From Oscillospiraceae bacterium (lineage in GTDB: Bacteria; Bacillota; Clostridia; Oscillospirales; Acutalibacteraceae), in contig JAQXZE010000027.1 of NCBI GenBank assembly GCA_029227055.1, forward strand, positions 1 to 37,643: a DNA stretch of 37,643 bases, in the 5' to 3' direction. Positions within the stretch are counted from its first letter, which is position 1. Every line of letters starts with the position of its first letter. Of this stretch, positions 3,420 to 34,783 are shown piece by piece. Below the pieces are notes generated by a model. It did no database searches. It saw nothing but the letters and a program-made list of their open reading frames with translations, and had not been told where the DNA came from. A program made the translations under genes and the position numbers.

Positions 3420-4538
3420 ATGAAGACGTTATTTGCAAGTATACCTATCTTGTCGTTTCTAATATTGTTTTTATCCGGATGTAATGCTGTTGGTGATAAA
3501 AATGCTAGCCTTTCCATTATTTACGGAGTTGCCGCCATATTGTCACTTTTGCTTTTGATCGGCTGTTGCCTGGTAGTACGCAAAAAGAAGATCTGGTTTA
3601 TTTTGTTGTTTTCATCGGTGCTTATAGTAAATATCGGCTATACCTTCTTAGCGATCTCCACCTCTCTTAAAATGGCTTTATGGGCAAACCTAGTAGCATA
3701 TCTCGGCTCGGTGTTTTTGCCGCTTGCAATGCTTATGATCGTCCTTGAAGTCACAAGTACGCCACATCCAAAATGGCTACACGGGGCGCTTGGTACACTA
3801 TCAATTATTGTATTTCTTATTGCGGCAAGTCCGGGAATATTGCCGATCTATTATAAAGAGGTTCGCCTTGAGGTGATGGATGGTGTATCCACGCTTGTGA
3901 AGGTGTATGGACCGCTTCATCCGATATATCTTATCTATCTGCTCGGTTATTTTGCCGCTATTGTTATGGTAATTATCAGGTCACATGTAAAGAAAGCTAT
4001 TGACAATGCCGCGCATGCCGTTATCCTTGCAATTGCCGTTTTTGTAAATATCGGTGTATGGTTTATTGAACAGCTTGTTGCTGTTGATTTTGAAATGCTC
4101 TCCATCTCCTATATTATCAGCGAATTGTTTTTGCTCGGAATTCACCTTGCTATGAATGAAAACCAGAGACTTCGTGCGATTGTAAAGCAGGTAGAAACAG
4201 TGCAACGCTACTCTACAAAGGACGCTGCCGCACCGGATATTATGCTTGAAAGACCGGTCGAGAACGAGGTTATTACTCCTGAACGCATTGAGTTCTTTAT
4301 GATTGGACTCAAAACACTGACACCGACAGAGAAGGTAATCTATGATGCGTATATTGCCAGAGTCACTACAAAGGAAATTATGGCAAGTATGGACATCAAG
4401 GAATCAACTCTGAAATACCACAACCGAAATCTTTATGGAAAATTAGGAGTTGCCTCCCGAAAGGAACTCCTAGAAGTACATAAACACTTAAAATCTGTTA
4501 ATACTTTACTTAAAGAAGTAAATGCCGGTGGCAAATAG
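3420..4538 (+). CDS. Membrane-embedded LuxR-type one-component regulator (multi-TM sensor + HTH)
   Basis: The first ~245 of 372 residues form seven or eight hydrophobic helices, resembling the 7TM sensor region found at the N-terminus of some histidine kinases. A short helical linker follows, then a LuxR/GerE HTH at about 300-355 (LTPTEKVIYDAYIARVTTKEI, then IKESTLKYHNRNLYGKLGV). There is no receiver, kinase or HAMP domain, so signal and DNA binding appear to sit in one membrane protein. The first helix ends in FLSGC, which could be a lipobox, but I read it as a TM helix. The ATG follows GGGAG. It is divergent from the anchored surface protein, its likeliest target. The ligand is unknown. Confidence 0.8.
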   Translation: MKTLFASIPILSFLILFLSGCNAVGDKNASLSIIYGVAAILSLLLLIGCCLVVRKKKIWFILLFSSVLIVNIGYTFLAISTSLKMALWANLVAYLGSVFLPLAMLMIVLEVTSTPHPKWLHGALGTLSIIVFLIAASPGILPIYYKEVRLEVMDGVSTLVKVYGPLHPIYLIYLLGYFAAIVMVIIRSHVKKAIDNAAHAVILAIAVFVNIGVWFIEQLVAVDFEMLSISYIISELFLLGIHLAMNENQRLRAIVKQVETVQRYSTKDAAAPDIMLERPVENEVITPERIEFFMIGLKTLTPTEKVIYDAYIARVTTKEIMASMDIKESTLKYHNRNLYGKLGVASRKELLEVHKHLKSVNTLLKEVNAGGK

Positions 4539-5268: not shown

Positions 5269-7791
5269 CTAAATTAAGCTGATTTTTTTTGTATATTTTT
5301 TGTTTTCGTCCTTTAAAATACCGCCTAAAGCAATACAGGAAACCAAAACAGATTTTAAAACACCGCTCTTTTCACCTGTTGCAGGAGACTGATTGTTAGA
5401 ACCGCCTACGCTACCCGAATTAGAAGAACCGTTATTTTCTGCATAAATTGCAAGTTCCTTTGCCCATTCCTCTGTAAAGCCGAAGAGAGCGAAGTCAACC
5501 GGAATTACTAAACCGTTAATTTCTGCTGTAGCCTTATCGGACTCTATATAAAGGCCTAAACCAGTCTTTAAGTTCGGAGCGTATCCGATAAAGTCGCAAT
5601 ACTTATTAGCGCAAAGCTGATCGTTTACAAAAATACCAAGTCGAACATCGTTCTTCTTGCCGTCGCCATCAATATCCAAAATTTCTGTGGAGAAACCAAG
5701 CTTATATTTCTCGCCGTAGAAGGACTCTACTGCGGACTTAGCAGCGGGTATTGAATAATATTCCCACTTACCTGATGGGTCTGTATAACCTGAAGCCTCA
5801 AAAACCTCAATATTATCGGCGTGAACAACAATTGATATACCGCCCCAACCTTCGCCCGCATAACGGAAATACATCTGCTTCTGCTCAGGGTTATCAAACT
5901 TAGCTTCCATTACAACATAGGTGTTATCGAGAGGCTTCATATTAGCACCCATAAACGAGAAGCCGTTATTTGCAAATGTATAAACGCCGTCCTGTACACC
6001 GAAATCAGTTAAGGTTATAAGTTTAAGTTCATCATTCGGGCTTTCAAGAATAAGCTCAGGAATAAGATCCTTAATTGTTCCAAGTTCAATGCTTGCACCA
6101 TCACTGTTAGCATAGAAGGAGAAGCCGTTGCCAAGCCAAGGAGTATAGTCGTTAACATATATGAATGTATCGTTATAAAGGTCTTCGTTGAAGTAAACGC
6201 CTATCTTAACATCGTCTTTTTCGCCGTCGTTATCGTTATCAAGAGCCTCAATGCTTATACCAAAACGGAAATTCCTATCTGAGAAGTTCTTAAGAGAGGT
6301 ATTCTCTGCTTTGAAGGAAGCAATAAGTGCCTGATTCTGTGTTAGAAGCTGAATTTCTGTATTAGAAACGGCTCTGATACGAGTACCCTGCCAACCGTCA
6401 GTTTCGATAAATCCGTAGATTATATCAGCAAATCCGCTCTTAACCGAAACCTTCATATCTGTAGAGAAGTACTTACCGATAACGCCATCCATTGCCTGCG
6501 TTCTTACTGCCAATCCGTTTCCGGCATAGGTGTAAACACCGTCTTGCATACCGAAATAGTCCAATGTGATTTTGTCAATATCTTTATCAGGCAAAGTAAC
6601 CTTAAGGTCTTCAATAGCGCCTAAGGTAATTGTTGAATTCTTTACATTACTGAATACGCCCATGGAATTACCGAAGGCTGTTACTGCATCGCCAAAGTAG
6701 ATAAAGTTATTTTCATAAAGAACATCATTAAACCATATACCAAGCTTTAAATCGTCTGCCTGAGTATCCTCGTCAGCATCAATATACTCAAAGCTGATGC
6801 CAAGCTTGAAGGGGGTATCTGCAAACTTAGCAAGACCGGCTTTTCCTGCCTCAAAGGTATACTCATAGGGAAGCACACCTGCAGCATCAGTAAGCACTAA
6901 TTTGCCGCCTTTAAGTGTAAAGGAAAGGCCTGAAAGACCGGGAGCAGACTTCATACCTGCATAGCGGAAAGCCGCACCCTCAGTAGCAGAGAAGGTAATA
7001 TTGGTTGTAAAATAAGAATTATTTACACCAACAAAACGAGTACCTGTTGCAGAGGGCTTTTGGTTGTTTGTACCGTATACACCGTCTTTAACATAGAAAT
7101 GCTCAATAGATATCCAATCTAAATTCTTGTTAGGAAGAACCTTTGCTCTTGAGTCAGATTTAACCTCTACAGATGCCGAAGTGTTACAAGCAATAGTAAC
7201 AGTCTTGTTGTTATCAAAATTAACTACCTTATTCTTTATTGTAAAGAAATTATCTTTATAAAGAACGCCGTTAATCCAAACGCCAAGCTTTAAATCGTTT
7301 TTAACACTATCTGCATCAGCAGCAACTACCTCAAAAGAGATACCTAAATTAAATTCAGTATTAATAAACGAAGTAATGGTATCTGTCGGCAGCTGAGTTC
7401 TTAAAATTGCATTACTGGTACCGTTAAACTTAACAGTTAAAATAGCAGCATTACTAGCATTTACGGTTAAGCCGTTTCCTTTGCCGTCATCTGCAAGTAA
7501 AATCTTGGCACCGCTACTCGAAAACTTAACATCTGCAGAAAAATACTTCTTATCAAATGTATCTTTAGAAGTAGCAGTAACAGGAGAGTTTGACGGAGCA
7601 GTAGTGCTATCATACACACCATCAGCAATCTCATAGTTTGAGAAAGAAATTACCTCAAAAGAGGGGTCCGGTTGTATGCCGGCAGAAGCATTAATCGGCT
7701 TCGGCACAATAAAAGCACCTGCCAAAAACAGAGTAATACTGCATATTACTGCTGTTATCAAATGAATGCTTTTCTTAAAGATTCTAGACAT
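5269..7791 (-). CDS. Modular secreted surface protein, four DGVY modules, sorting-signal-like C-terminus
   Basis: The 840-residue protein has a signal peptide (about 1-36) and four copies of a beta-rich module of roughly 180 residues, with DGVY near 57, 234, 416 and 600. Each copy has a D-x-D-x-D-x-x-x-D stretch that looks Ca-binding, then (D/N)(D/V)(V/L)(K/R)(L/I)G and a second set of aromatic strands. I take the module to be a LamG/concanavalin-like carbohydrate-binding fold, by inference. A Ser/Asn/Gly linker leads to SPATGE near 802, a hydrophobic stretch and a Lys-rich tail, resembling a degenerate LPXTG sorting signal. The hydrophobic part is short, so a C-terminal frameshift is possible. 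AAGGAG precedes the ATG. It is the last gene of the train. Confidence 0.75.
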   Translation of the reverse strand: MSRIFKKSIHLITAVICSITLFLAGAFIVPKPINASAGIQPDPSFEVISFSNYEIADGVYDSTTAPSNSPVTATSKDTFDKKYFSADVKFSSSGAKILLADDGKGNGLTVNASNAAILTVKFNGTSNAILRTQLPTDTITSFINTEFNLGISFEVVAADADSVKNDLKLGVWINGVLYKDNFFTIKNKVVNFDNNKTVTIACNTSASVEVKSDSRAKVLPNKNLDWISIEHFYVKDGVYGTNNQKPSATGTRFVGVNNSYFTTNITFSATEGAAFRYAGMKSAPGLSGLSFTLKGGKLVLTDAAGVLPYEYTFEAGKAGLAKFADTPFKLGISFEYIDADEDTQADDLKLGIWFNDVLYENNFIYFGDAVTAFGNSMGVFSNVKNSTITLGAIEDLKVTLPDKDIDKITLDYFGMQDGVYTYAGNGLAVRTQAMDGVIGKYFSTDMKVSVKSGFADIIYGFIETDGWQGTRIRAVSNTEIQLLTQNQALIASFKAENTSLKNFSDRNFRFGISIEALDNDNDGEKDDVKIGVYFNEDLYNDTFIYVNDYTPWLGNGFSFYANSDGASIELGTIKDLIPELILESPNDELKLITLTDFGVQDGVYTFANNGFSFMGANMKPLDNTYVVMEAKFDNPEQKQMYFRYAGEGWGGISIVVHADNIEVFEASGYTDPSGKWEYYSIPAAKSAVESFYGEKYKLGFSTEILDIDGDGKKNDVRLGIFVNDQLCANKYCDFIGYAPNLKTGLGLYIESDKATAEINGLVIPVDFALFGFTEEWAKELAIYAENNGSSNSGSVGGSNNQSPATGEKSGVLKSVLVSCIALGGILKDENKKYTKKISLI

Positions 7792-7827
7792 AATAAAACT
7801 CCTTATTTTATTTTTATTTAAAATAAA

Positions 7828-9174
7828 TTAATCTAACACAATTAGTATTGCGCCGCCTGCAACGAGCGTAGCTTCAAAGAAATCACCCTCGCCGCTAGTA
7901 TTTATATCAAGCGAAGACACCTTGTAGGATACCGTCGCATTGAAATTAAGTTTAATTTTCTGAAGGGCTGTTCTATCGTTATTAACAACATAAAGTGCTG
8001 TCTTTCCTTCATAATCAAAGCAACCGATTATAAGTCCCTTCTCTTCTGCCTCAACAGACTTTAACTCGCGGAAAGAATCAGTCTTAAAGAATTCGGGAAG
8101 TCCCTCAGTATCAATTTTGGCATCTCCCGTAACGATGAGTCCCTCGCTCTCGCATTTAAGGAGGACCTCGTCTACAATACCCACTTGTTCATTAGCAGTT
8201 TTAACAGGACCGTAGTAATGGTTGGGTTTACCGTCGGTACCGATTATTCCGCTGCGGTTGTTATCGGATGTACCGTCTGCCCTTATCGCAGTTAAGTGAT
8301 GTTGCACAAGTGTGAAATACTCTATACCCTTACATCCATATGCAAGACTCACATTAACAAGCCAAAGCAGTTCAGCAGGACTCGGATAGTACTCACAAGT
8401 AATATCCTGCTTGAATGCACCAAAGAAGCCGCCTGCCTGAATAAACGCCCAAATAGGCATATTATATTTTTTAGCATTCTTATAAACTATTGAAAAGTTT
8501 TCATAGAAGAACTTAAATGCTTCAGGTGTTCCGCCTTCATAGAAAACGCTGAAAGGATAATGGTCATAAGAAATGAATTTAGCGCCGTAGGTTTCGCAAT
8601 ATTCTTTTATGTATTCATCATAATCCTCTGCAGTAGCTTCCATCCAATGATATCTCGGTAAAAGATTTGAATATCCGATTAGATTATCGTAACTGTTAAC
8701 AAACTTTGAAAGAGGAGCGAAGTTATACATAAGTCTCTTTTCAATGTTCTGGTCAATTCCGTTGCTGAATTTCTGTGGGAAATTCTCACTGGAAGGCTCG
8801 TCGCAAACATAAATTCCTGCAAAAGATTTATAGTCGGAATATTCTCCGATACGGTCTTCAAATTCTTCGTATGTCATATCAGCATTAAGTTTGCTGTCTA
8901 TAACAAGCATCTTTATATTATGCTTTTCTGCAAGTGCTAACATTTCGTGATAAAGCTGTGGTTTTGCGTTATAATCTTCCTCATTATAAAGTATAAGGTT
9001 AAAGCCTGCATCCTCTATCATTTGATAATATTTATCTTCAATATAGCTTATCGACTTAAAGCCTTCAATATCTAATGCCGGACGCGGCCCGTAAAATCCC
9101 GCAATCGGCATTACGCCGTCAGAACCTAAAGGCTTAATCTCCCTATAAGTTCTTGTGAGTTTTTCTTTGCTCAT
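7828..9174 (-). CDS. TIM-barrel glycoside-hydrolase-like protein, cytoplasmic copy 2
   Basis: The 448-residue protein has no signal peptide. The N-terminal region (20-300) reads as a (beta/alpha)8 barrel with MPIAGFYGP at 22-30, CDEP at 124-127 (Glu126 a candidate acid/base), SYDHY at 202-206, AFIQAGG at 243-249 and SLAYGCKGIEYF at 276-287. The C-terminal ~100 residues (IGCFDYEGKTALYVVN onward) form a small beta domain like those that close clan GH-A enzymes such as GH42 or GH39. I cannot place it in a known family. It is closely similar over its length to the next gene upstream (9219-10565) and more distantly to the enzymes at 10598 and 17855. GAGGAGG precedes the ATG. It probably acts on imported oligosaccharides. 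Confidence 0.7.
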   Translation of the reverse strand: MSKEKLTRTYREIKPLGSDGVMPIAGFYGPRPALDIEGFKSISYIEDKYYQMIEDAGFNLILYNEEDYNAKPQLYHEMLALAEKHNIKMLVIDSKLNADMTYEEFEDRIGEYSDYKSFAGIYVCDEPSSENFPQKFSNGIDQNIEKRLMYNFAPLSKFVNSYDNLIGYSNLLPRYHWMEATAEDYDEYIKEYCETYGAKFISYDHYPFSVFYEGGTPEAFKFFYENFSIVYKNAKKYNMPIWAFIQAGGFFGAFKQDITCEYYPSPAELLWLVNVSLAYGCKGIEYFTLVQHHLTAIRADGTSDNNRSGIIGTDGKPNHYYGPVKTANEQVGIVDEVLLKCESEGLIVTGDAKIDTEGLPEFFKTDSFRELKSVEAEEKGLIIGCFDYEGKTALYVVNNDRTALQKIKLNFNATVSYKVSSLDINTSGEGDFFEATLVAGGAILIVLD

Positions 9175-9218
9175 GGGTTCCTCCTCAAAATATGGGGTAA
9201 TCTAAAATTTAATAAATA

Positions 9219-10565
9219 CTAATTTAAAACAACTAACACAGCGCCGCCGGCAGTGAGTGTAAATTCGCAAAAATCACCCTTACCGCTGAAGTTAACATCA
9301 AGCGAAGATGTTTTATATGATACTTCTCCGTTAAAGTTGAGTTTAACCTTTTGAAGCGCTGTCATATCGTCGTTAACGACATAGAGAGCAGTTTTTCCTT
9401 CATAATCGAAGCAACCGATTACTACACCCTTATCGCCAGCTTCTACGGACACTAATTCTTTATAAGAATCTGTTTTAAAGAATTCGGGCAATTCGGCGGT
9501 ATATTTTTTAGCGCCGCCTGTAGATATAAGTCCTTCACTTTCACATCTTAGCAGAACCTCATCTACAATACCTACCTGCTCGTTGGCAGTTTTAGCATAA
9601 CCGTAATAGCGGTTAGGAATACCGTCAGTGCCTATTATACCTGAACGGTTGTTATCGTAAGAGCCGTCTGCTCTGATAGCAATCGGCAAGTGGGTTACAA
9701 GGGTAAAATACTGCAGTCCCTTACAGCCGTAAGCAAGACTTATATTTACCGACCATAGCATCTCGGCAGCGCTCGGGAAATAATCGCAGGTAACATCCTT
9801 TTTGAATGCGCCGAAAAATCCGCCTGCCTGAATAAACGCCCATATAGGTAAATTATATTTCTTGGCGTTTTTATAAACTATTGAAAAGTTTTCATAGAAA
9901 TATTTAATAGCATCAGGAGTTTCTCCCTCGTATAAAACGCTGAAAGGATAATGGTCATAAGAGATAAACTTGGGGTCATAGGTTTCACAGTATTCTCTTA
10001 TGTACTCATCGTAATCCTCGTATGTAGCTTCCATCCAATGATACTTAGGTAAAAGATTTGTATAACCTACCAAATTATCATAGCTGTTAACAAGCCTTGA
10101 TAGCGGTGCGAAATTATACATTAATCTCTTTTCTAAGTTCTGGTCGATGCCGTTACTGAACTTTTGGGGGAAGTTCTCGCTTGAGGGTTCATCACAAATA
10201 TAAATTCCTGCAAAGGAATCATATCCCGAATACTCTTTAATGCGCTCTTCAAACATCTCATTTGTCATATCGGCATTAATTTTGCCGTCCATAACAAATA
10301 TTTTTATGTTGTGTTTTTCAGCTAAAGAGAGCATTTTGTGATAATCCTCTGTCTTTGAGCAATATTCATCGCCATTATAGGAGATAAGATTAAATCCTGC
10401 ATCCTCTACCATCTGAAAATACTTATCTTCAAGATAGTTTATCGACTTAAAACCCTCAAACTCCCTTTCGGAATGCGGACCTAAATATCCTGCAATCGGC
10501 ATTACGCCGTCTGCGCCTAAGGGTTTAAGGTTTTTATAAGATTTTTTTGGTTTTGTATTGCTCAT
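9219..10565 (-). CDS. TIM-barrel glycoside-hydrolase-like protein, cytoplasmic copy 1
   Basis: The protein is 448 residues, the same length as its tandem paralogue, if ATG at 10565 is used; that ATG has GGGGTG at good spacing. A GTG three codons upstream (10574) is the alternative. All family motifs are present: MPIAGYLGP, CDEPSS, SYDHYPF, AFIQAGG, SLAYGCKG(L)QYF and the C-terminal IGCFDYEGKTALYVVN. There is no export signal. The tandem pair must come from duplication, yet both keep every motif, so both are probably active with slightly different specificity. Differences concentrate in loops, for example TLVTHLPIAIRADGSYD against TLVQHHLTAIRADGTSD. It lies between the large secreted fusion and copy 2 with short gaps, so it is probably co-transcribed. 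Confidence 0.7.
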   Translation of the reverse strand: MSNTKPKKSYKNLKPLGADGVMPIAGYLGPHSEREFEGFKSINYLEDKYFQMVEDAGFNLISYNGDEYCSKTEDYHKMLSLAEKHNIKIFVMDGKINADMTNEMFEERIKEYSGYDSFAGIYICDEPSSENFPQKFSNGIDQNLEKRLMYNFAPLSRLVNSYDNLVGYTNLLPKYHWMEATYEDYDEYIREYCETYDPKFISYDHYPFSVLYEGETPDAIKYFYENFSIVYKNAKKYNLPIWAFIQAGGFFGAFKKDVTCDYFPSAAEMLWSVNISLAYGCKGLQYFTLVTHLPIAIRADGSYDNNRSGIIGTDGIPNRYYGYAKTANEQVGIVDEVLLRCESEGLISTGGAKKYTAELPEFFKTDSYKELVSVEAGDKGVVIGCFDYEGKTALYVVNDDMTALQKVKLNFNGEVSYKTSSLDVNFSGKGDFCEFTLTAGGAVLVVLN

Positions 10566-10597
10566 TGTTTGCACCCCAAAAATTTAAAGAAAACTAA

Positions 10598-13500
10598 TTA
10601 GTTAAGAATAACAAGAACTGCCTCACCTGCACCTAAAGTAGCTGAATATTTGCTAGCGGTAGAGGTAGTGTTTACAGTTGAAGATATCGCCTGTAAATTG
10701 TAAGTATTATCAAAATTTAATGTAATGGTACGAGAGCGGCTCATATCGTAGTTTACAGCGTAAAACGCCTGTTTACCCCTGTATTCAAAGCAACCTACAA
10801 TAGCGCCGTTTGTAGAGCTTGTTGACGAAACAGAGGTTAAAGCACCATAAGAAGAAAGTGTCTCTCCTGTATCTGCTGTAGCAGTTTTACCGTATACTAC
10901 AACTGCCTTTGAATCAGCCTTCATAAGATACTCGTCAACCGCTGCAATCTGTGCATTCGCCGCTTTAGCCATTGCGTGATAGCGGGTCTTTTCACCGTTA
11001 GCGCCTACAAGACCTATAGAGTCAAAATCGAAGTCGGTTTCACTGACAGCGGGTTCAAATGCTAAGAAGTAAGGCTGAACTACTGTAAAGTACTGCATAC
11101 CCTTTACGCCGTATGCAAGCTGAGTATTGACATTCCACTTAAGCTGCCCTTCGGTAATATGGTTTACTCCACCGCGTTTGCCATCAGGGTCGCCTGCCTG
11201 AACAAAGCCCCAAAAGGGAATATTGTATTTAGCAGCCGCCGCTTTAACAAGTCTTATGTTGTTGAAATAATAGTCATACTGTCCCGTCTGGAATACATAG
11301 TTATCCCAAGAAATCATTTTGGGACTGAAAGTCTCACAGTACTCTTCAAGATATTCGTTATAAATTGCATTCTCTTCCTCGAATACTGTACTACCTGAAA
11401 GAGTGTAATACAGCGGATAAAGATTTGTATAACCGAAAATATTAGTGTATTTATTTGCCATAACGGCTGCTGCCGCATTGCTTGTCATATTTTCGTCTGT
11501 CATATTAACAGGGAATTTTACAGTATGCGGTTCGTCTACAATGAAGAAGCCTTTAAAGGACTTAAAGTGAGCCACTGAGCCTACATACTTAGCAAAATTC
11601 TCATCGGTAACAGAGGTGTTTTTGTAGTTAACAGTTAAACCTACACCATATTTTTCAGCAAGCTCTAAATTCTTATAAAGGTTGCCGCCAAAACCGGAAT
11701 TTTCAATATAAGAAATCATATTTACGCCTGCATCTGCAATATATTCGTAAACCTTATCGGTTACAAGGTTGTTTGTAAGGTAGCTCTTATACGCGCCATT
11801 TACATTTTCAATATAATTATACTGTTGCTGCGGACCGTGGAAGCCTGCTATCGGCATTGTGTATTCGCCTAAAGGAGAATACTCGTCAAAATCAGTAAAT
11901 ACAGGGGTCGATGACAGACCTAATACCATACGCTTGATTTTGATTATATCGGAAGAAGTAACTTCACCGTCAAAATCGGTATCAGCACCCTTTGCCTTGT
12001 ATTCGGCATCGTCAAGACCTGCTATGTGTTTCTTTGCTGCAATAAAATCTAAAATATCGATGTTATTGTCTGCGTTTACATAGCCCGCCTTCCAAAGATG
12101 TACCTTTTGAACATATTCTTCACCCCTAAAATTGCGAACAATTACATATTCGCCGGGGGTTGATATCTTGTAGCCTGCCTCAAAACCGTCTACACGGTTT
12201 ATGACCGCTTTGCCGTGTGCATAGAGCATGAAGTTGCCCTCGTGGAGATTGTAAACATCGGGGGTAAGGCTATCTTCAGGTAAACGGTTGCCAACAACAA
12301 GATTCTTCTTTGTAAGCTTAAGACCTACTATTGAAGAAGTGCCGCTTAGAGCGTCTTTTATGAAGAAAACTCTATTATCTATTGGCTCGCCGTTGATGCA
12401 TACCATTACCGAAAGGTCATTTTCTGCATCGTTATCGAGGTTAACAATTTTTGTATAGATATCAAGCGCAAATTTGGAATTTGAGGAGATACTGTCAAGT
12501 GTTTTTGAGAACAGACCGCTTATAACGGGGTTTGTTCCGTTTGAAGTAATGTTAATAGACTGTATATCGTTGCCTACAGTACTAAATGGAAGATTTTCAG
12601 AACCAAAATCGGCAACATAGCTTTCAACTGCAATTCCGTTTGTAGAGGAATTAGAGCTTAAAGAAATATAATTTCCAAGACTAGAAGCTCCGTTTACAAT
12701 ATCAAACGAATTATAGTATACACCGTTAAACCATATGCCGAGCTTAACATCATCACTAGCTCCGTCAGAGTCGGTGTCGGTTACAAAGGTAGATAGTCCT
12801 AAAGTAAAGTTCACCGAATTAAAGCTTACAAGCCCTGCTTGTGCGGCGGTTATTTTTGTAACAGAATTGCCACTAGCATTCCTTATATTAAGACCGCTTG
12901 CATTTATACTGAACAATATACCCTTATCGGCAGCTGTTCCTGCAAAATAGAAGCTTGCTCCTGTAACAAATTTGAATTTACCGCTAAAGCACTTCTGATT
13001 TAATGTATCAGAAATACTTCCCGACACCTTGTTGGTAGAGGAATATGTACCCTTCTCTATACCAAAATCAGAAAATGTTAAGGGAGCGCCACTTTCGGCT
13101 AATGTAAAACCTAGTTGTGCGGATGTATCACTCAGCGTTATATCTGAAGAAAACACCTTACCGCCACTTAAATTGTATGTATCAAATGCGTTGTCTGAGG
13201 TGAATTTAAAATCATCAAATCCGTTTACTTCTGCTCTGTAAGAAATCTGCTTTTTATCAGATTTTACAGTAGCTTTGATATTAAACTTGTTTGTTATTTT
13301 TGCCTTGTAATCGTAAATTAAAACCGATCTCCAAAGCGTATCGTTAACATATATATCAGCATTAAGGTCTGCCTTGCTGTCGGTATTATAGTCCTTTGTA
13401 TTGGTAACAATCTCAAGGTTAAAGTTATCTTTAGCAGAAACGGAGTTGGAATTTTCGGTGCCAAAATCAAGGTCTACCGAAGCGGGCGCAAAGGCAACAG

Positions 13501-14893: not shown

Positions 14894-14975
14894 CTGTTTA
14901 CTCCTTAATCTGAATTTTCGGGTGTTTTCCGTTTATTAACAATATCTAAATCTTTTAAATAGCATTAATAAGCGG

Positions 14976-15019
14976 AAATCCTCCGCAGAGGGTGGGTTTT
15001 CCCCACCCTCCGAGGATTT
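14976..15019 (-). promoter_or_regulatory. Intercistronic stem-loop between the 917-aa and 1431-aa genes
   Basis: Two stacked stems (AAATCCTC with GAGGATTT, and GAGGGTGGG with CCCACCCTC) enclose a short T-rich loop, with a small asymmetric bulge. No T run follows on the minus strand. It sits in a 159-bp gap, the largest inside the gene train. It fits an RNA-processing or 3'-protecting hairpin that gives the upstream genes more mRNA than the downstream ones; partial termination is the alternative. Confidence 0.6.
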
Positions 15020-15052
15020 AAGACAAATTCTGAATTTATCTATAGCTTATAA

Positions 15053-17806: not shown

Positions 17807-17854
17807 TTTAAAATACCTCCTAAATTAGAAAATTTTAGAGTATACGCTAAGGAC

Positions 17855-19231
17855 TTATTCGATGACAACAAGTACCCCCTCTCCGGCTTTCATATCCAAC
17901 ATAAGCTTGTCGGTTTCAACTAAGGATTCCTTAGTCTGCTGGATAACGGAAAGTTTGTATGTGTCATGGAATTCGAGGTTAATTTTCTGAGCATACTCAA
18001 AGCTGTTGTTAACTACATAGAAGGCGGATTTTCCATTATAGTTGAAACAGCCAATCATAGTCTCACCGTCGAAATCCTTAAGCTCGCGCCAGGATTGACC
18101 ATCAATCACGTGCTCTGCATTAGCAAGGTATGCTTTACCTAGTGAACCGTTTGTAAGAACGCCCTTGTTTACAGAGTTCATGAGTACATGGTCAACAGCT
18201 TTGATTTGGTCGTTTACGGGCTTTGCATAGTACCAGAAACGAGTCTTTTTACCGAATGCGCCAACGATACCTACACGGTTTGCCGCTTCAGATAAATCTT
18301 TGCCACCATGGTTAACCAAAACGTCAGCTGTATTTTGAACAGCAAGGAAGTACTGAATACCCTTTGCGCCATAGGCTAAAGAGGTATTAATATTCCACGC
18401 CATTTCAAATTCATTAACATTTTCATAGCCTGTATTTGTCCAAGCCTGAATAAACTGCCACCACGGAATGTCATAACGCTCTGCAGCCGAACGGATTGCT
18501 GACATATTATAGAAATATGTAGCATAGTTTCTCTGCTCGAATACATAGTGGTCATACATTAAAACTTTTGGGTGACAAAGAGATAAGTAACGCTCTAAAT
18601 ACTCTTCGTAAGCCTGCTTCTGCTTAAAGTCATAAATCGGGAAAAGGTTACAGTAACCGAAATATCCGAGTTCATTTAAAACCTTGAAGTAAGGCTCACA
18701 GGTAACAGCGATTTCACGCTCGGGAGCAACGAAGTAGTTAGGACCCGAAGGCTCATCCATTACGTGAATAGCTGCGAAGGATTTATATTTTTTATAAGGC
18801 TTGATGCTTTCGTCTGCTGTTTTAACATCAGCGATAGGAGCCGTACCTAAAGCGATAGTACAAGCAATGCCGTACTTCTCGCCGAGCTTGAACAGTTTAT
18901 CTGTATACTGTTCAGCCTTAGCAGTACCAACCTGTGACCATTCCTGATATGTTAAGTAGTTAATACCACATTCTGCAAATGCAGAGAAAACCTCATCAGT
19001 AATAGTGCTCGGCTTTGTATTACCGTTTCTACTCCAAACCTCAGGTCCGGGACCGTGGAATCCACCGATAGGCATTACATCTGTACCACCGATAAAATCG
19101 AAGCTAAAGGTGTTAACCTTCTCGGGCTCCATAGGTTCAATTTTAACTTCTTCCTTAGAAAGTGAACAACCGCAGAAGCAAAGCACAATTGCCATGCAAA
19201 GAGCCAAAATTTTAACTATAAACTTACTCAT
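17855..19231 (-). CDS. Lipoprotein TIM-barrel glycoside-hydrolase-like enzyme
   Basis: The 458-residue protein begins with a lipoprotein signal (hydrophobic run, FCGC, lipidated Cys22) and a short linker. The barrel family motifs follow: MPIGGFHGP at 53-61, MDEP at 158-161, MYDHY, FIQAW, SLAYGAKGIQYF and the C-terminal MIGCFNYNGKSAFYVVN. It should sit on the outer face of the membrane, next to the ABC solute-binding lipoprotein, and could trim chains before uptake. Its ATG overlaps the end of the upstream gene by 8 bp, so translation is probably coupled. It is more divergent from the two cytoplasmic copies than they are from each other. The substrate is unknown. Confidence 0.75.
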   Translation of the reverse strand: MSKFIVKILALCMAIVLCFCGCSLSKEEVKIEPMEPEKVNTFSFDFIGGTDVMPIGGFHGPGPEVWSRNGNTKPSTITDEVFSAFAECGINYLTYQEWSQVGTAKAEQYTDKLFKLGEKYGIACTIALGTAPIADVKTADESIKPYKKYKSFAAIHVMDEPSGPNYFVAPEREIAVTCEPYFKVLNELGYFGYCNLFPIYDFKQKQAYEEYLERYLSLCHPKVLMYDHYVFEQRNYATYFYNMSAIRSAAERYDIPWWQFIQAWTNTGYENVNEFEMAWNINTSLAYGAKGIQYFLAVQNTADVLVNHGGKDLSEAANRVGIVGAFGKKTRFWYYAKPVNDQIKAVDHVLMNSVNKGVLTNGSLGKAYLANAEHVIDGQSWRELKDFDGETMIGCFNYNGKSAFYVVNNSFEYAQKINLEFHDTYKLSVIQQTKESLVETDKLMLDMKAGEGVLVVIE

Positions 19232-20798
19232 CTACGGTTTCACCTGCCTTCTTAATTCGTCTTTTACGAGCAATTACCGATACCAAAGTGGTAACGCCTA
19301 CTGCAATTACTGCAACACCTGCTGCGATAGCAGGGATAAGATAGAAGTTAAATCCTGCTTCTTCGGTATTGTTTTCAGGCATATAAACTACTTCCATAGG
19401 AGTATATTTATAATCCTCGGGGAAAGGCTCCTTATTTGTAAGGAAGTCAACCTCAACAATATTGGGGTCGAAGTCTAGATTCTTAACCTTAACATTATCA
19501 ATCATCATATTTGTATAATCGAGACCGATAATCTGAATGAAGCCTGTAGGTGTGGGTGCATCACTCTGGTCAACTGTGAAAACAGGGTCGCCAAAGCTCT
19601 TTTCATCCATCCACTTAGCATAGCCTGTGAATACGCCGTCCTTCATAACGAACTTAAGGCTATAGCCCTTATTAGAAGTATCTTCATCAAAGAAGTTGAA
19701 GCCTTCCTTTGTAAAGGTTCCGTCATGCTGAGAACCGCTATAAACAGTTAAATAGTTACCGTTACCCAAAACTATTTGTTTTGAATAAGCGGAGGGAGAC
19801 CAGTTGATAGCCTCCATCTCGTTAGACTCGCAGCCTGTACGAACATAGTAGTAAGGCATCGGTCTTGTAACGAGGTTGCCCTCATCATCTAAAACGGTGT
19901 GGTTCTGTTGATAAGGAACATCAAAACTGAATTCAAAGTTTGAATATGTATACTTTGTGGAAAGGTAAACGAAACGACCGTTCTGCCAAAGCATACCCTT
20001 ATGACCCTTATACTCCTGAATATCCGCACAACCGGGATAGTCAACAGCAGCAACCATTGTAGATGTAAAGTGATTTATATTCCACTCACTGTCGTTAAAA
20101 TCTTCAGAGAAGTTAACATTTTCGGGAGTGTCATAAGCATAGGACTTGAAGTTTACTGTGGAAATTTCAGCCACACAGCCGTCTGTCTGAATAAATCCTA
20201 TTCTGCCTTCACCCGTATGCTTGATGTTTGCATTTTTGCAAAGGCTTGTGCCGTTTATGGAAACCGTAATCTTATCATCAGTTGTGATGGTAAATGTAAC
20301 ATTAAGGTTTGCACCGACAGAGCCTACTCTTTTTGTGGATGAAATAGTAGTGGGGTTAGCGTCTGCATCATAGGAAACTACTGATGCATGAATGCCGCCC
20401 TTATTCTTGAACTGAAGCTCAAGGGTACTTGCACTACCGATTTCAGGCTCAATTGTTTTTAATGCAAACGCCAATGCAAAGGTCTCCCCTGCGGGCAATT
20501 TTGTAAGTTTAAATGTAGTACTACCTTCTACAAGCTTATCATAATACGCGGACTTCACTGTAGGGCTTTTCCAAACAAGCTTGGTGCCTGAAGAACTGTC
20601 CTTCGGAAAAACGATTTTTCCCTTTTTAACGATAATATCTTCGTTTGCGTTGTGCCAATCCTGTGTGGAAAGCTCATCGTTGGCGAAGCTGCTATTGTCA
20701 AGATTAACAATAGCAGAACCCGCCGAAGCTACAATTGAAAGACCTAATACAAGGATAATGCATATAAGAAGAGATACTATTTTCTTATATATCTTCAT
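19224..20798 (-). CDS. Secreted, C-terminally anchored lectin-like protein
   Basis: The 524-residue protein has a signal peptide (about 1-26) and two beta-rich regions (about 30-225 and 225-455). The segments WHNANEDIIVKKGKIVF, RIGFIQTDGC and INWSPSAYSKQIV suggest concanavalin-like (LamG/DUF1080-type) sandwiches, by pattern only. A TM helix at about 484-510 and a basic tail RKRRIKK anchor it. The ribosome site AGGGGT precedes the ATG. It follows the solute-binding protein gene by 19 bp and overlaps the lipoprotein enzyme gene by 8 bp. It is probably a cell-surface glycan binder that feeds the transporter. Confidence 0.65.
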   Translation of the reverse strand: MKIYKKIVSLLICIILVLGLSIVASAGSAIVNLDNSSFANDELSTQDWHNANEDIIVKKGKIVFPKDSSSGTKLVWKSPTVKSAYYDKLVEGSTTFKLTKLPAGETFALAFALKTIEPEIGSASTLELQFKNKGGIHASVVSYDADANPTTISSTKRVGSVGANLNVTFTITTDDKITVSINGTSLCKNANIKHTGEGRIGFIQTDGCVAEISTVNFKSYAYDTPENVNFSEDFNDSEWNINHFTSTMVAAVDYPGCADIQEYKGHKGMLWQNGRFVYLSTKYTYSNFEFSFDVPYQQNHTVLDDEGNLVTRPMPYYYVRTGCESNEMEAINWSPSAYSKQIVLGNGNYLTVYSGSQHDGTFTKEGFNFFDEDTSNKGYSLKFVMKDGVFTGYAKWMDEKSFGDPVFTVDQSDAPTPTGFIQIIGLDYTNMMIDNVKVKNLDFDPNIVEVDFLTNKEPFPEDYKYTPMEVVYMPENNTEEAGFNFYLIPAIAAGVAVIAVGVTTLVSVIARKRRIKKAGETVDE

Positions 20799-20817
20799 TA
20801 ACAGTTACCCCTATAAA

Positions 20818-22389
20818 TTAGCTATTGATATTTGCAAGCCATGTGATAAGGTATTTAGATTCAACGCTCTGAGTGAGGTTGTTCCAAGCCTGGTCAGCAG
20901 TCCACTTATCAGCTGCGTTGTTTGTCTGATAGTGAGAGATGAACTCGATATTAGCAAAGAGGTCAGCGCCGCCCTTGTTGAATATGTCGTGGTTAGAGAT
21001 GTTCTGGTCAGCAATACCGTTTGTATAGGTAGCCTCAAGCTCAAACATATTGCGTGAGAAAGGAGTCCACTCAGCTGTGTTAATCTTAACCTTGCTGTAG
21101 TCAACACCACCAACTGCATAGTGCTGCTGTTCAGCAATTGCCTTAACATTTTCTTCAGAAATCATATAAGCAATAAACTCTTTAGCGCCCTTAACAGCAG
21201 TTGAATACTTAGGAACGAAAGTACCACCAACGATAGGAGAACCGTATGCGATGCGACGAGCGCTGATGATATGATTCCAGTCAGCAGCGGAAATGGTTTT
21301 GCCTTCTACCTTGTAGCCGGAACCGGACTTATAGTCAGCTTCGGTCTTCTGACCATCAAGTACAGAGTCAACAGCAGAGATAAGCTTACGTAAATCAGAC
21401 TCAGACTTAACGGTTGAAAGCTTGTTGGTAATTGATGAAAGTAAGGGTAAGCGGAAGCAATCGAAGTTATCAAGGTTACCTGCAGATGCAGCCTCGTTCT
21501 CGAGCCAAGCACCGTTGTACATCATAGCGGCTTTACCCTGAACTAAGTATGTCTGAATAAGTGTATGAGATGTAGAGTTTGAACCCTGAAGAACATACTT
21601 GGAGTCTAACATACCCTCAAGAGCCTTCATGATTTCATATCTACCGTCTTTCTTAAGGAATACTGCCTTAGAGGGAGACTCGCCTGTTTCAGGATCCTTA
21701 CAACCGAAGTAGTTGTTTAATGCATAGTCGATACCTTCGTACTGTGCATACCATACGTAGCAAGCCTGTGCCCAGTAGCCTGCGCCCATGAAGGAGCAGA
21801 ATGCAGGGATGCCTTCAGCCAAAAGTGAGTCAGCTACAACGCTGGCTTCGTTTGTGGTACGGGGAGTTTTGAGGCTATACTTATCGAACATAGCCTTGTT
21901 GTAAATCATAGAATATCTGGAAGCACCGATAGCAGGTAATACATAGAGGTTGCCGTCGGGGAATCTACCTGCATCAAGCCATTCCTGCTGGAAGTGCTCG
22001 CCTACCTTTTTGGTAGCATTCTTGGGTGTCATTTCATAAACATCTGTAAGGGGCTCTAAGTACTGTCTGTACTGAGGAGGACAGTTAACGATATAAATAT
22101 CAGTATCGTCGATATCTTCCTGACCCATAGCTGCTAGGATAGAAGCGTTGGATGCAGACATCTGTAAATCAACTTTGTACTCGGGATACAACTTGTGGAA
22201 GCGCTCAACAGTCTTCTTAATCCATGCAGAGCCGAAACCGGAATTCCAATACTGAAGCTTAATGTCAGTCTCGGTATTACCCTCGCCGCCTGCAACGTTT
22301 CCTCTGTTATTAGAGCCGCAGCCTGCAAAGCATGTAACTAGCATAGCTACTGCTAAAACAAGAGCAAGAAGTTTAGTCATCTTTTTCAT
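20818..22389 (-). CDS. Carbohydrate ABC transporter solute-binding lipoprotein (extracellular family 1 type)
   Basis: The 523-residue protein has a lipoprotein signal with FAGC and lipidated Cys24. The mature part starts with IKLQYWNSGFGSAWIKKTVERF and continues with FHKLYPEYKVD, the usual opening of CUT1 sugar-binding proteins; VLPAIGASRYSMIYNKAMF and AAMMYNGAWLENEA are further family hallmarks. It is longer than typical maltose-binding-like proteins (about 400-430), which suits larger oligosaccharides. Asp/Asn-rich segments in the C-terminal third (DYSKVKINTAEWTPF) are unremarkable. AAGGAG precedes the ATG. It lies 75 bp after the MalG-like gene, a common order in CUT1 operons. Confidence 0.9.
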   Translation of the reverse strand: MKKMTKLLALVLAVAMLVTCFAGCGSNNRGNVAGGEGNTETDIKLQYWNSGFGSAWIKKTVERFHKLYPEYKVDLQMSASNASILAAMGQEDIDDTDIYIVNCPPQYRQYLEPLTDVYEMTPKNATKKVGEHFQQEWLDAGRFPDGNLYVLPAIGASRYSMIYNKAMFDKYSLKTPRTTNEASVVADSLLAEGIPAFCSFMGAGYWAQACYVWYAQYEGIDYALNNYFGCKDPETGESPSKAVFLKKDGRYEIMKALEGMLDSKYVLQGSNSTSHTLIQTYLVQGKAAMMYNGAWLENEAASAGNLDNFDCFRLPLLSSITNKLSTVKSESDLRKLISAVDSVLDGQKTEADYKSGSGYKVEGKTISAADWNHIISARRIAYGSPIVGGTFVPKYSTAVKGAKEFIAYMISEENVKAIAEQQHYAVGGVDYSKVKINTAEWTPFSRNMFELEATYTNGIADQNISNHDIFNKGGADLFANIEFISHYQTNNAADKWTADQAWNNLTQSVESKYLITWLANINS

Positions 22390-22464
22390 AATGTTTTCTC
22401 CTTATGTTTAATATTTTAATGCCACACGGCAATTTTTACATTAAATCGGTTCGAAAAATCGAAC

Positions 22465-23325
22465 TTATCCTTTAATACCGCCAAGTGATACGTTTGTAGT
22501 AATCGTTTTGTTAAATACGATAAATAGGATTATACAAGGAATACATACATAGAAGCAGGCTGCAAAGAGAATATCAAGTCTTGCTCTGTATGTCATTTCA
22601 AGGTTGAAGTTATAGATACCTACAGGCAATGTAGGAGTCTTGGGCTGGTTAATAAGAATGTATGTATAGTCATTCCACTGAGCAATCCAAGAAGTAATAC
22701 CCAAAGCTGTAAGTAGAGGCATTGCCTGAGGAAGCATTACTCTGAAGTATACCTGGAAATCGTTAGCGCCGTCGATTTGAGCCGCTTCTGCGTATGTCCA
22801 GGAAAGGTTTTTAAAGTAAGCATTGAAGTATAAGTAGGATGCTGAGAAACCGGAAATGTTCATAAACGCAGCCCACATATTATTGATAAGACCAAGTCTC
22901 CAACCAAGTCTATAGGAAGCACCGCCCGCACCGTAGATGGGAAGTGTCATAACAACTAAGATTATGAGGTACGGCCATGTACTTGTGGGGAACTTATACT
23001 TTGAACAGGTGTAAGAGAATGTACACTGAGTAAAGATTGAAAGAGTAACAGGGATGATTGACCACCACAAGCTGTTAAACAACATGTTCCAGAAGCCAAC
23101 GCCGTTAACTTCAAGCATACTCATAACATCTCTGTAGTTTTCCCAATGCCAAACGGTAGGAAGACCGAATGTATCAAGTGCTACCTCTGTATGTGTTTTA
23201 GCACCCGACATAAACATCCAGAAAAGGATGTAAACATAGGAAAATGCAACTGCTGCAAATATTAATGATACGAAACAGTAAAGAATCTTCTCGGGAAGAC
23301 TTTTTCTTTTTAAACTTTTGAACAT
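22465..23325 (-). CDS. Carbohydrate ABC transporter permease, MalG-like (CUT1)
   Basis: The 286-residue membrane protein has six predicted TM helices. The cytoplasmic EAA loop is clear: YAEAAQIDGANDFQVYFRV followed by LPQAMPLLTALG (about 180-210), which docks the ATPase. It ends with TTNVSLGGIKG, typical of MalG-type permeases. GGAG precedes the ATG, and the MalF-like gene ends 20 bp upstream. No ATPase gene is found in the window, so a shared MsmX/MsmK-type ATPase encoded elsewhere is expected. Confidence 0.9.
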   Translation of the reverse strand: MFKSLKRKSLPEKILYCFVSLIFAAVAFSYVYILFWMFMSGAKTHTEVALDTFGLPTVWHWENYRDVMSMLEVNGVGFWNMLFNSLWWSIIPVTLSIFTQCTFSYTCSKYKFPTSTWPYLIILVVMTLPIYGAGGASYRLGWRLGLINNMWAAFMNISGFSASYLYFNAYFKNLSWTYAEAAQIDGANDFQVYFRVMLPQAMPLLTALGITSWIAQWNDYTYILINQPKTPTLPVGIYNFNLEMTYRARLDILFAACFYVCIPCIILFIVFNKTITTNVSLGGIKG

Positions 23326-23345
23326 AACTTAAAATCTCCTTCCCG

Positions 23346-24278
23346 TTAAAATTCTGCGTCTGTAAACATTTTGTTTGTATACTTACGCATAAACATTGTT
23401 ATAGTAACGGCGATAACCGTCATTATAAGACCAACGGCAGACATGTAGTTGAATACCGGAGCATTCGGGTCGCCGGCACCGGCCAAGGTCTGCATATAGA
23501 GCCAAGTTGAAAGTGTCTGAGTACCGTAAGCACCGCCTGTTAAAAGGAAGTTTGCTGTTGATGCACCGAAGATACCGCAGAAGCTTAAGAGTAGCTGTAA
23601 TGCAACTGTAGGCCATACAAGCGGAACAACGATTTTGGTAAACTCACCAAGCCAGCTAACACCGTCAATCTGACCTGACTCTAAAACATCGGCAGGAATT
23701 CTTGCAAAGGTACCGCCCCAGATAATAAGGTCACCGGGGAAGCCGAGCCATAACATATGAGCCCAAAGTGTGTAATTAGCAAAGCGTGAGTCTGCAAGAA
23801 GCTCAGGGATATAGGAAAGTCCCATCCACTCACCGATTTGCTTAGCTATCGGTCCATACACACCAACAAACTGTGTAAATACCATCGCAATAGCAACACC
23901 GAATATCATTGCGGGCAAGAAGAATAGTATTCTGTAAACGCCCGAAAAAGGAACCTTCTTATAAAGGAAGTATGAAACTAAAACCTTAAAGGGATATGTA
24001 ACAAGTCCGATTGCGAAGGTAATAAGTGTGTTTTTGAGAGCTATTAAAAGCTCACCGTCAGGCGATGTGAATTCCTTAAAGGCTCGGACGAAGTGGTCAA
24101 CTGTCCAAGCGCCGTCGGAAGTTTGGAACGCCATAAAAATTGAGTCAATATTTACATAAACATAGAAAACTAAGAAGAATACCCAAGGAAGAAGTATTGA
24201 AAAAAGAATAAATGCTACTCTAATCCAATTTATAGGCTTCTTATTCTTCTTTTCTATAGGATTTTTTACTGCTGTCAC
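23346..24278 (-). CDS. Carbohydrate ABC transporter permease, MalF-like (CUT1)
   Basis: The 310-residue protein has six TM helices and an EAA loop (PADVLESGQIDGVSWLGEF, then KIVVPLVWP) near 213-240. The start is GTG at 24278, which overlaps the TGA of the upstream surface-protein gene in the sequence GTGA; AGGAGG lies 11 bases before it. This coupling places the anchored lectin-like protein in the same transcript. It pairs with the MalG-like protein at 22465 to form the membrane channel. Confidence 0.9.
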   Translation of the reverse strand: MTAVKNPIEKKNKKPINWIRVAFILFSILLPWVFFLVFYVYVNIDSIFMAFQTSDGAWTVDHFVRAFKEFTSPDGELLIALKNTLITFAIGLVTYPFKVLVSYFLYKKVPFSGVYRILFFLPAMIFGVAIAMVFTQFVGVYGPIAKQIGEWMGLSYIPELLADSRFANYTLWAHMLWLGFPGDLIIWGGTFARIPADVLESGQIDGVSWLGEFTKIVVPLVWPTVALQLLLSFCGIFGASTANFLLTGGAYGTQTLSTWLYMQTLAGAGDPNAPVFNYMSAVGLIMTVIAVTITMFMRKYTNKMFTDAEF

Positions 24279-26047
24279 TGTTTCTTGAACCTCCTAACAA
24301 CTATAATAGAGCCTGCAACAGCAACTGCTACAATTACTACCGCAAGACCGATAGCAATGAAGGGGGCTGCATCTACCTTACCGCCTTCGCCGTCTACTGC
24401 TACATAGGTTTTGCCTGCTCTATTCTTCCATTTAGCGTAAAGAGTTTTACTCGATGTCTGAATCTTATCAAAGTCAAACTCTTTACCGTCAACGGTTACC
24501 CAAGCCACAAACTCGTCACCGTCAACCTTCGGGTCAGCAGGTTTTTTAACCTTATATCCGTTCTCAGGAGAAAGAATCTGTGTTTTGATTGTTTTATCGG
24601 TACCGGTAACAAATGAAATCTTATATTCACCTAAAGCATCGTATCTGTTTCCGTCTGCATCTATTAAGTATGCAAGATAGAATTTATACTTTTGCTTTTC
24701 GCTACCGAAAACAGCTGTCATATCACCGGGAGTTGAATCCTGAACAGAGAATGTACCCTGCTTTGTAACTCCGTCTTTATTTGTAATTTCAATTGTTTTA
24801 TCGGGATATGTTGCTATATAAACGTCTTTTTCTGCGTTGTAGTATACGCTATCGCAGTTTTCATAGCTTATCATTTCGCCTTTGTGCTCGATTGTTCCGG
24901 GAACGGTAAGCTGAACACCGAGGTTCTTGTGATTTGCATCATATATACGTACGTCAGAAAGGGTAAATGTTGAATAGTGGTACGGACCTTCGCCGTAAAC
25001 TAGTGCTGAGTATCCGAAATTTTTAGTTGAGGGAGTAAAGAAGAAGTTGCTTGTAAACTTAAACCATTCGGTTTCTCCTTTATATGTACGCTGAATTAAA
25101 TAATCCCAACCCTCATCGGTGTGGGTATTATACATTTTAACCAAGTACTTGGCACCAGGGATAAGCATCTGGCTTATTTCGGTGGCTTCTACGTGCTGCG
25201 GGTCGTAAGTAACGTTAGTACAGGTGTACTGTGTACTACCACCGCCTGTGATGTGAGCCATATTAAGCCACAAGCCTGACTGATAATTCTTAGACTTAGA
25301 GGACTTAACAGTATATTCAATATACATTTCGTCGGTAGTGTTCTTGATTTTGTTACCAAGTCTTACATTGTACTGCTTTTCTACAGAAACGGTATATGTA
25401 TGGTTAACATCGGTAGCGCTGGGTGTGGGCTTTTTGTTTGCTTCCATAGCCGCAATACCTGTGCTTCCGCTAACACCTAAATCGTTACCATTCTTATCAT
25501 AGATATGAACATTGGTAAGCTCAACCTTGGAAGGACCGCCGTCAAACCAAAGGCCTAAAAACTTCATCTTGGTAGTATAGGTATCTCTCCAAACAGAAGG
25601 AAGAGCATAGTATGAAGACTCATTACCTTTGGCAATAGCCATAGTATACTCAAAGCCATCCTTGGTTGTAACAAACTTGATGAAGTATGTATAACCTTTC
25701 TTGAACATATTGGTGGGGTCACCGTTCTTGTAGCACATAAGACCGCCATTAGTGTAGAGATACACACGGTCAGACTTGCTATCCGAACCAACAAGACCCT
25801 GCTGATGAGCAGTAACCTCGCCAACCTTAGAAACTGTATAGGTCATATACATCTCTTCGCCGACTTTACCGCTTAAGGGTTTTGTGTTAGAAACGAAACC
25901 TAGAGGGGTATCAATGTTAACATTGTAAGCTGTTTCGCTTACCTTTACCTTAGGCTGTGCGGCAGATACAGCCATCGGAATAGTTGTAAGCACTAATACA
26001 ACTGCAACCAACAACGGTATCAATCTTTTTGAAAAACTTCTTTTCAT
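24275..26047 (-). CDS. Secreted, anchored lectin-like surface protein; first gene of the locus
   Basis: I choose ATG at 26047 (590 residues), preceded by AAAGGGAT and starting a proper signal peptide (MKRSFSKRLIPLLVAVVLVL). The frame is open 16 codons further up, to 26095, but that extension has no ribosome site and would bury the signal. Two related beta-rich domains (about 32-200 and 215-385) share VxLxNVxIYDxNxxxLGV-type ends. A segment at about 475-545 with Flg_new/InlB B-repeat features (GYKVKKPADPKVDGDEFVAW, then KTLYAKWKN) follows, then a TM helix near 560-583 and a basic tail. It is probably a glycan-binding protein at the cell surface. Its stop overlaps the MalF-like start. Confidence 0.75.
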   Translation of the reverse strand: MKRSFSKRLIPLLVAVVLVLTTIPMAVSAAQPKVKVSETAYNVNIDTPLGFVSNTKPLSGKVGEEMYMTYTVSKVGEVTAHQQGLVGSDSKSDRVYLYTNGGLMCYKNGDPTNMFKKGYTYFIKFVTTKDGFEYTMAIAKGNESSYYALPSVWRDTYTTKMKFLGLWFDGGPSKVELTNVHIYDKNGNDLGVSGSTGIAAMEANKKPTPSATDVNHTYTVSVEKQYNVRLGNKIKNTTDEMYIEYTVKSSKSKNYQSGLWLNMAHITGGGSTQYTCTNVTYDPQHVEATEISQMLIPGAKYLVKMYNTHTDEGWDYLIQRTYKGETEWFKFTSNFFFTPSTKNFGYSALVYGEGPYHYSTFTLSDVRIYDANHKNLGVQLTVPGTIEHKGEMISYENCDSVYYNAEKDVYIATYPDKTIEITNKDGVTKQGTFSVQDSTPGDMTAVFGSEKQKYKFYLAYLIDADGNRYDALGEYKISFVTGTDKTIKTQILSPENGYKVKKPADPKVDGDEFVAWVTVDGKEFDFDKIQTSSKTLYAKWKNRAGKTYVAVDGEGGKVDAAPFIAIGLAVVIVAVAVAGSIIVVRRFKKQ

Positions 26048-34133: not shown

Positions 34134-34134
34134 T

Positions 34135-34779: not shown

Positions 34780-34783
34780 AAAA

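Follow-up and report, generated by a model that had tools for sequence, protein, structure and literature searches.

The stretch of DNA analysed here (the window; bases 1–37643 of contig C27, from a 1.5-Mb draft genome of 70 contigs) carries on its minus strand a unit of eleven open reading frames (ORFs), placed at 5269 to 26095 by the ORF listing, which encode parts of a sugar importer, exported proteins and four copies of a single family of barrel proteins. The first ORF contains an in-frame ATG at 26047, 16 codons inside, that provides a sensible start with a signal peptide. From this position downward the order is S606, permease F (PermF), permease G (PermG), a binding lipoprotein, S524, a lipoprotein barrel, a 917-aa protein, a 1431-aa protein, two cytoplasmic barrels and an 840-aa protein, and the successive intergenic gaps are −4, 20, 75, 19, −8, 48, 159, 23, 44 and 36 bp. 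An earlier note, made from the letters of this DNA, had described eleven co-directional genes with short gaps or overlaps, and this description was confirmed. Rfam and tRNA scans found nothing.

The barrel copies, like all genes of the unit on the minus strand, are a lipoprotein of 458 aa (17855..19231; assigned by lipobox, paralogy and tree), the domain at 10601..11917 of the 1431-aa secreted protein (10598..14893), and two cytoplasmic proteins of 451 aa (9219..10574) and 448 aa (7828..9174), the last being the one that was modelled. BLASTP identified the four as paralogues (E 0 to 1e-54), with 75% identity within the cytoplasmic pair and 32–35% for the other pairs. Compartments were assigned by motif, using a regular expression and reading by eye: the lipoprotein has a lipobox, the 1431-aa protein has a signal peptide and the two remaining barrels have no signal. 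Export of the barrel and surface proteins is predicted from such motifs, and to that extent the earlier claim of four paralogues of one barrel family, secreted, lipid-anchored and cytoplasmic in two copies, was borne out.

The importer, also named in the earlier note, is present as two ATP-binding cassette (ABC) permeases and a sugar-binding lipoprotein, with no ATPase gene in the unit. Permease F (23346..24278) matched PF00528 slightly below cut-off (E 1.3e-5, 25.4 bits against 26.4), and permease G (22465..23325) matched NCBIfam sugar permease models, every one below cut-off; they are 57% and 62% identical, respectively, to their copies in a locus of the same genus (L077). The binding lipoprotein (20818..22389) matched PF01547 (E 3.2e-16) and, at 89 bits against a cut-off of 299, TIGR03850. 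Its nearest PDB entry was 9h0n (E 2.6e-9), and lacto-N-biose and galacto-N-biose are the ligands of its nearest relative of known structure (PMC12345172). Counted by eye on the alignment, three residues at the N-acetyl sugar (Gly, Trp and Glu) are kept in the window protein, as is the Tyr belonging to the following site.

The unit's first gene encodes S606 (24275..26047), an exported protein with a C-terminal membrane helix and a List_Bact_rpt domain (PF09479, 1.1e-6). S524 (19224..20798), placed directly before the lipoprotein barrel, reads from its sequence as exported, with a C-terminal membrane helix and a basic tail. The 840-aa surface protein (5269..7791) and the 917-aa secreted protein (15053..17806) each contain four copies of a repeat of ~157 residues, and the 1431-aa protein contains about five, some copies being partial; the repeat was also found in proteins of a second unit on contig C29 of the same genome and of loci L077, L026 and L024. 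The repeat had no meaningful Pfam or PDB match (best Pfam E 0.011, in one of 14 members) and is taken as a putative glycan-binding module. The 840-aa protein ends in a sorting-signal-like tail (SPATGE, a hydrophobic stretch and a basic end, read by eye). A type I dockerin lies at 11921..12079 of the 1431-aa protein (Pfam 28.9 bits, cut-off 22.9). The 917-aa protein has a degenerate tail, similar to this dockerin region by BLASTP, that had no Pfam dockerin match, so that of the dockerin proteins proposed earlier the 1431-aa one stands on Pfam and the other does not. Across the whole genome nine dockerin and two cohesin matches were found, from which it follows that the secreted barrel enzyme may dock on a small scaffold.

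No barrel in the window matched a curated family of carbohydrate-active enzymes (CAZymes), as the earlier note had anticipated: PF02449 (GH42) matched none of the four barrel proteins at E up to 1, and no NCBIfam model matched. Across the family, PF02449 was matched by 11 of 33 members at E up to 0.1 (best 6.6e-6). A phmmer search of one barrel against the PDB gave no match, and a scan of viral contigs confirmed no relative. The AlphaFold2 model of the 448-aa barrel (predicted local distance difference test 88, predicted template modelling score 0.91) and a profile alignment both put the window barrels beside the GH42 beta-galactosidases, and the barrels are thus predicted to share their fold (GH42/GH164-like). 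This was the outcome of the Pfam search and structure comparison that had been suggested as checks. GH112, GH20, GH84, GH123 and GH18 were not among the best 50 structure matches listed for the 448-aa barrel, a listing too short to exclude any of them, and no GH20-type Pfam or NCBIfam model was among the matches of the barrels. No description of the family was recognized among the paper listings of the open-licence PMC library.

Active-site residues were counted over 90 domain rows from 88 frames, a set that includes fragments, leans to the best matches, and omits loci repeating the same DNA together with L072, L074 and L075. In the 448-aa model strand 4 comprises residues 118–125 and strand 7 residues 241–246; D125–E126 stand where strand 4 ends, D204 and Y206 follow strand 6, and strand 7 ends in Q246. 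E126 is invariant (87/87 rows with a letter), D125 and P127 are each kept in 86/87, Y206 in 89/89 and D204 in 84/89. The profile alignment sets E126 against the GH42 acid/base and D125 against the Asn that precedes it in GH42. In a family alignment of 33 rows (A3; the four window barrels and 29 of 30 domain matches, L044:13895-15493 being omitted), all but one of the 32 other rows share just 20–35% identity with the first, and an invariant acid in so divergent a family argues for catalysis.

The strand-7 position gave a different picture. The profile alignment sets the GH42 nucleophile Glu on position 245, and the match to L072 sets Glu on 246. All 88 rows lack Glu at position 245. At position 246 they carry Gln (62 rows), Leu (18), Ser (3), Glu (2), Ala (2) or Gly (1); in either register the alignments indicate that the nucleophile Glu is gone from nearly all rows. 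All four window copies have I-Q or V-Q at this site. The genome's seven barrel copies all keep D-E and D-x-Y, and six of them have Gln246, the lipoprotein of C29 having Gly. The two rows with Glu at 246 are L025:9836-11275 and L036:9785-11221, which nature provides as enzymes for comparison with those that lack the nucleophile. The L072 protein (1-2583) is a DUF4082 protein whose barrel has a weak GH42 match, D-E-P and a strand-7 Glu, and is perhaps an intermediate type.

The second unit, on C29 (L076 1-16667), is paralogous to that of the window and keeps its order, without permeases and with one cytoplasmic barrel. Its proteins are 51–70% identical to those of the window, but only 36–39% for the counterpart of the 917-aa protein, and the contig ends within its 840-aa homologue; the C29 unit may borrow the permeases of the window. 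The order S606, PermF, PermG, binding protein, S524, barrel is kept in L077 and in two contigs of metagenome-assembled genomes (MAGs; L024, L025), S606 homologues open the unit in C29, L077, L024 and L025, and S524 homologues occur also in C29 and L077. Among 22 loci from a scan of species genomes, 11 have importer homologues and eight an S524 homologue directly before the barrel, in both cases with several contigs ending too early to tell. The kept order and co-occurrence imply that the genes of the unit belong together; the barrel family is also used elsewhere. A further 61 neighbour proteins, chosen from the 22 loci and L077, gave few sugar-related Pfam families with one to three members each; the best 25 of 69 listed include acetylesterase, GH36, rhamnosidase-type, GH20C, GH29, GH38 and AraC-type regulators.

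Beyond its own genome the barrel was matched in 8 of 39 relatives and, at the level of the class, in 44 of 390 genomes, where many were partial matches to long proteins and the one checked was GH42. In the phylum 12 of 397 genomes gave matches, one of these being near full length. No more than four candidates per genome were scored in the class and phylum searches. The 22 loci come from uncultured bacteria, 17 being labelled Clostridia or Clostridiales and 11 deriving from deer, sheep, goat or 'Lapin' samples, and the named relatives of the host are gut Clostridia. In three same-genus genomes (L078, L079, L080) five or six distant barrel paralogues form tandem runs. Leu246 was considered as a marker of a tandem-array clade and rejected, the 18 Leu rows being scattered. 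In two 'Lapin' MAGs (L033, L034) the barrels have collagen-like N-terminal stretches, as read from the translations, and collagen-like NCBIfam models matched one member.

The origin of the compartment forms was addressed with a tree of 83 rows (score at least 60, at least 300 columns). The closest partner of the window's lipoprotein barrel is its counterpart on C29 (100/100); L077, L025, L024 and L017 join next, without strong support (91/82). The secreted barrel is likewise paired with that of C29 (100/100), then L077 (99/89) and L026 (96/82), and the cytoplasmic copies form a group (100/100) with the one from C29. This pairing implies that the staging across compartments predates the duplication of the unit, and only the cytoplasmic pair appears, from the tree, to be a recent duplicate. 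The proposal that staging had arisen by duplicating one fold thus holds as regards the single family, but the compartment lineages are older than the unit's own duplication. Elsewhere, lipoprotein and signal-less copies are neighbours (L030, L035, L038) or lie within one locus (L027), and at least five exported/cytoplasmic changes are needed over 35 rows labelled by hand.

Outside the unit, a membrane protein that reads as LuxR-like from its translation lies at 3420–4538 on the opposite strand; BLAST found no homologue of it among ORFs of at least 150 aa in the fetched loci. Genes read from their translations as citrate/isopropylmalate-synthase-like, GntR-type regulator and aconitase-like follow one another at 32760–36709.

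Taken together, the unit is on balance probably a Gram-positive-type glycan-utilization operon whose sole recognizable enzymes are GH42-like barrels that have departed from the double-Glu mechanism of clan GH-A. The repeat proteins and the dockerin-bearing enzyme would bind the polysaccharide and cut it first outside the cell, the lipoprotein barrel would trim fragments at the membrane, the ABC importer would import oligosaccharides and the two cytoplasmic barrels would complete the breakdown. The earlier interpretation is partly supported: a conserved co-directional unit of glycan type with one family in three compartments stands, while the fold is not new. The barrels have a glycosidase-type fold and the acid Glu; with the usual nucleophile absent, degradation itself is something we infer. 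Because the cutting residue of the galactosidases is absent, the barrels probably work differently from those enzymes, and three options remain: the substrate may assist, water or phosphate may attack, or a different carboxylate may serve. The Asp–Glu pair and the hints from the binding protein agree, which is why substrate-assisted cleavage of an N-acetylhexosaminide is tentatively placed first: the invariant strand-4 Glu would be the acid, and the substrate's own 2-acetamido group, held by D125 and the strand-6 Tyr, would act as nucleophile, as in GH20. It is possible, though we would hold it doubtful, that a GH42-like lineage dropped the GH-A nucleophile, rebuilt its site with Asp-Glu and the strand-6 Asp-x-Tyr, independently reached substrate-assisted or other non-classical catalysis, and then furnished whole loci alone, with one enzyme deployed outside the cell, on its surface and within it. 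The genome has nagA and nagB matches, but these say little, since of 14 control genomes seven also have a nagA match above cut-off and four a nagB match.

Several observations weigh against this reading. The barrels of L032-L034, L037 and L039 have no adjoining importer in the available stretch, no regulator is tied to the unit, and we know of no activity for any member of the barrel family. The glycosidases near other members are mixed (GH36, rhamnosidase-type, GH20C, GH29, GH38) and indicate no single sugar. The PDB match of the binding protein is weak, the galactose-reading Asp is absent from it, and an arabinoxylan binder is among its structural relatives (PMC12345172). A stricter posterior cut leaves just 84 aligned columns, around strands 7–8, which makes the strand-4 pairing with GH42 less sure, and the 14 GH42-type proteins were chosen for matching the barrel family, L074 being the one checked in Pfam. 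D204 is lost in 5/89 rows and D125 in 1/87. Moreover, L072 combines D-E-P with a strand-7 Glu, so that an Asp before the Glu need not mean participation of an N-acetyl group.

With E126 as the acid, water or phosphate could instead attack from the vacated nucleophile space, making the barrels inverting hydrolases or phosphorylases. GH112 offers the precedent, as an inverting, GH42-like family in which phosphate lies close to where GH42 has its nucleophile (PMC8106489), and the binding protein of the window resembles a binder of lacto-N-biose, the GH112 substrate. However, two of the four window copies are predicted to be exported, where phosphorolysis makes little sense, 0/33 members matched the GH112 Pfam model at E 0.1 and no conserved phosphate site was identified; an inverting enzyme is unlikely. 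Ordinary retaining catalysis with another nucleophile, most likely D204 on strand 6, is in our view quite unlikely: this Asp is kept in most rows and pairs with an Asp also present in GH42-type proteins, but there it stands beside their own nucleophile and must have another role, and some family rows have lost it.

It is also unlikely that the barrels are pseudo-glycosidases, which bind glycans and leave hydrolysis to other enzymes of the cell. Such proteins would fit the Gln or Leu found at the nucleophile place in 80/88 rows, which resembles a natural nucleophile knock-out, the differences at that place even within this one genome (the C29 lipoprotein has Gly) and a locus rich in binding-type repeats. 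They would not readily explain why the strand-4 Glu is kept throughout so divergent a family, nor what use two cytoplasmic copies would have as binders, and the unit contains no other enzyme recognizable by Pfam or NCBIfam (each with 10 of its 11 proteins scanned). That the genes are unrelated transcription units lying together by chance is very improbable. The 159-bp gap does contain a weak terminator-like hairpin, among 23 terminator-like sites where 15.7 were expected (sd 3.9), and promoter-like sites are no more frequent than chance would give (56 against 52.5 expected); yet the paralogous unit on C29 keeps the order and also has this 159-bp gap, and gene order is kept in other genomes.

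The broad kind of operon is known and in itself ordinary; it is carried by a GH42-like family with a changed active site. The interesting part is the missing nucleophile across the whole family, a large gut family in which nearly all members examined retain one GH-A Glu and have lost the other, with the rest of the site kept. Such a family would show in nature how a glycosidase scaffold can change its mechanism, and would name a glycan-use system that the searched curated libraries miss. The cytoplasmic barrels, of about 450 residues and encoded side by side by single-unit genes, are simple to test directly at the bench.

Among known enzymes, the GH42 beta-galactosidases (8ibt, 5e9a, 4uoq) share with the family a barrel with C-terminal beta-sandwich, the strand-4 acid Glu and the strand-6 D-x-Y. 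In contrast to GH42, the window barrel lacks the trimerization domain between barrel and sandwich (448 versus about 690 aa), and the family has Asp where GH42 has Asn before the acid and is without the strand-7 nucleophile Glu. Clan GH-A is unified by a pair of catalytic glutamates, one on strand 4 and one on strand 7, of which the family has the acid/base (E126) and lacks the other, the nucleophile, whose location on strand 7 is described in PMC7105311. The GH164 beta-mannosidase Bs164 (6t6g) likewise differs, having both acid Glu-160 and nucleophile Glu-297 (PMC7105311); no GH164 entry was among 14 PDB sequence matches at E up to 10. GH112 is closer in one respect, as a barrel related to GH42, an evolutionary link having been suggested, that works without a retaining nucleophile (PMC8106489), but it is a phosphorylase and, as noted above, differs in Pfam. 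In the GH20 N-acetylhexosaminidases the catalytic pair is an Asp-Glu after strand 4, the Asp stabilizing the intermediate formed by the acetamido group (PMC4752478). This pair is likewise present in the family; there is no sequence match to GH20, and the likeness is one of arrangement.

At the level of the locus, a GH5-like lipoprotein on contig C37 of the same genome (L100 1022-7349) adjoins a secreted GH5-like protein with a dockerin and, in contrast to the window barrels, keeps the N-E-P and T-E-C-G motifs. The compartment layout on C37 is the same, with another enzyme family; as a like unit it was considered and rejected, two neighbours not being significantly similar to S524 or the 840-aa protein (E 0.37, 0.50). 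The dockerin of the 1431-aa protein and the two genomic cohesin matches correspond to the predicted components of a cellulosome. The published definition of a Gram-positive polysaccharide-utilization locus (gpPUL) includes a transcriptional regulator (PMC5320581), and the earlier designation of the unit as such a locus holds for the transport system; for the regulator none was shown to belong. On the side of transport the window has a binding protein and two permeases without an ATPase gene, and on that of enzymes a glycosidase-type fold with the acid Glu and without the nucleophile. As in the gpPULs of Roseburia and E. rectale (PMC5320581), the enzyme genes lie beside a sugar importer; unlike those loci, the window unit has one unclassified enzyme family in several compartments, together with a dockerin.

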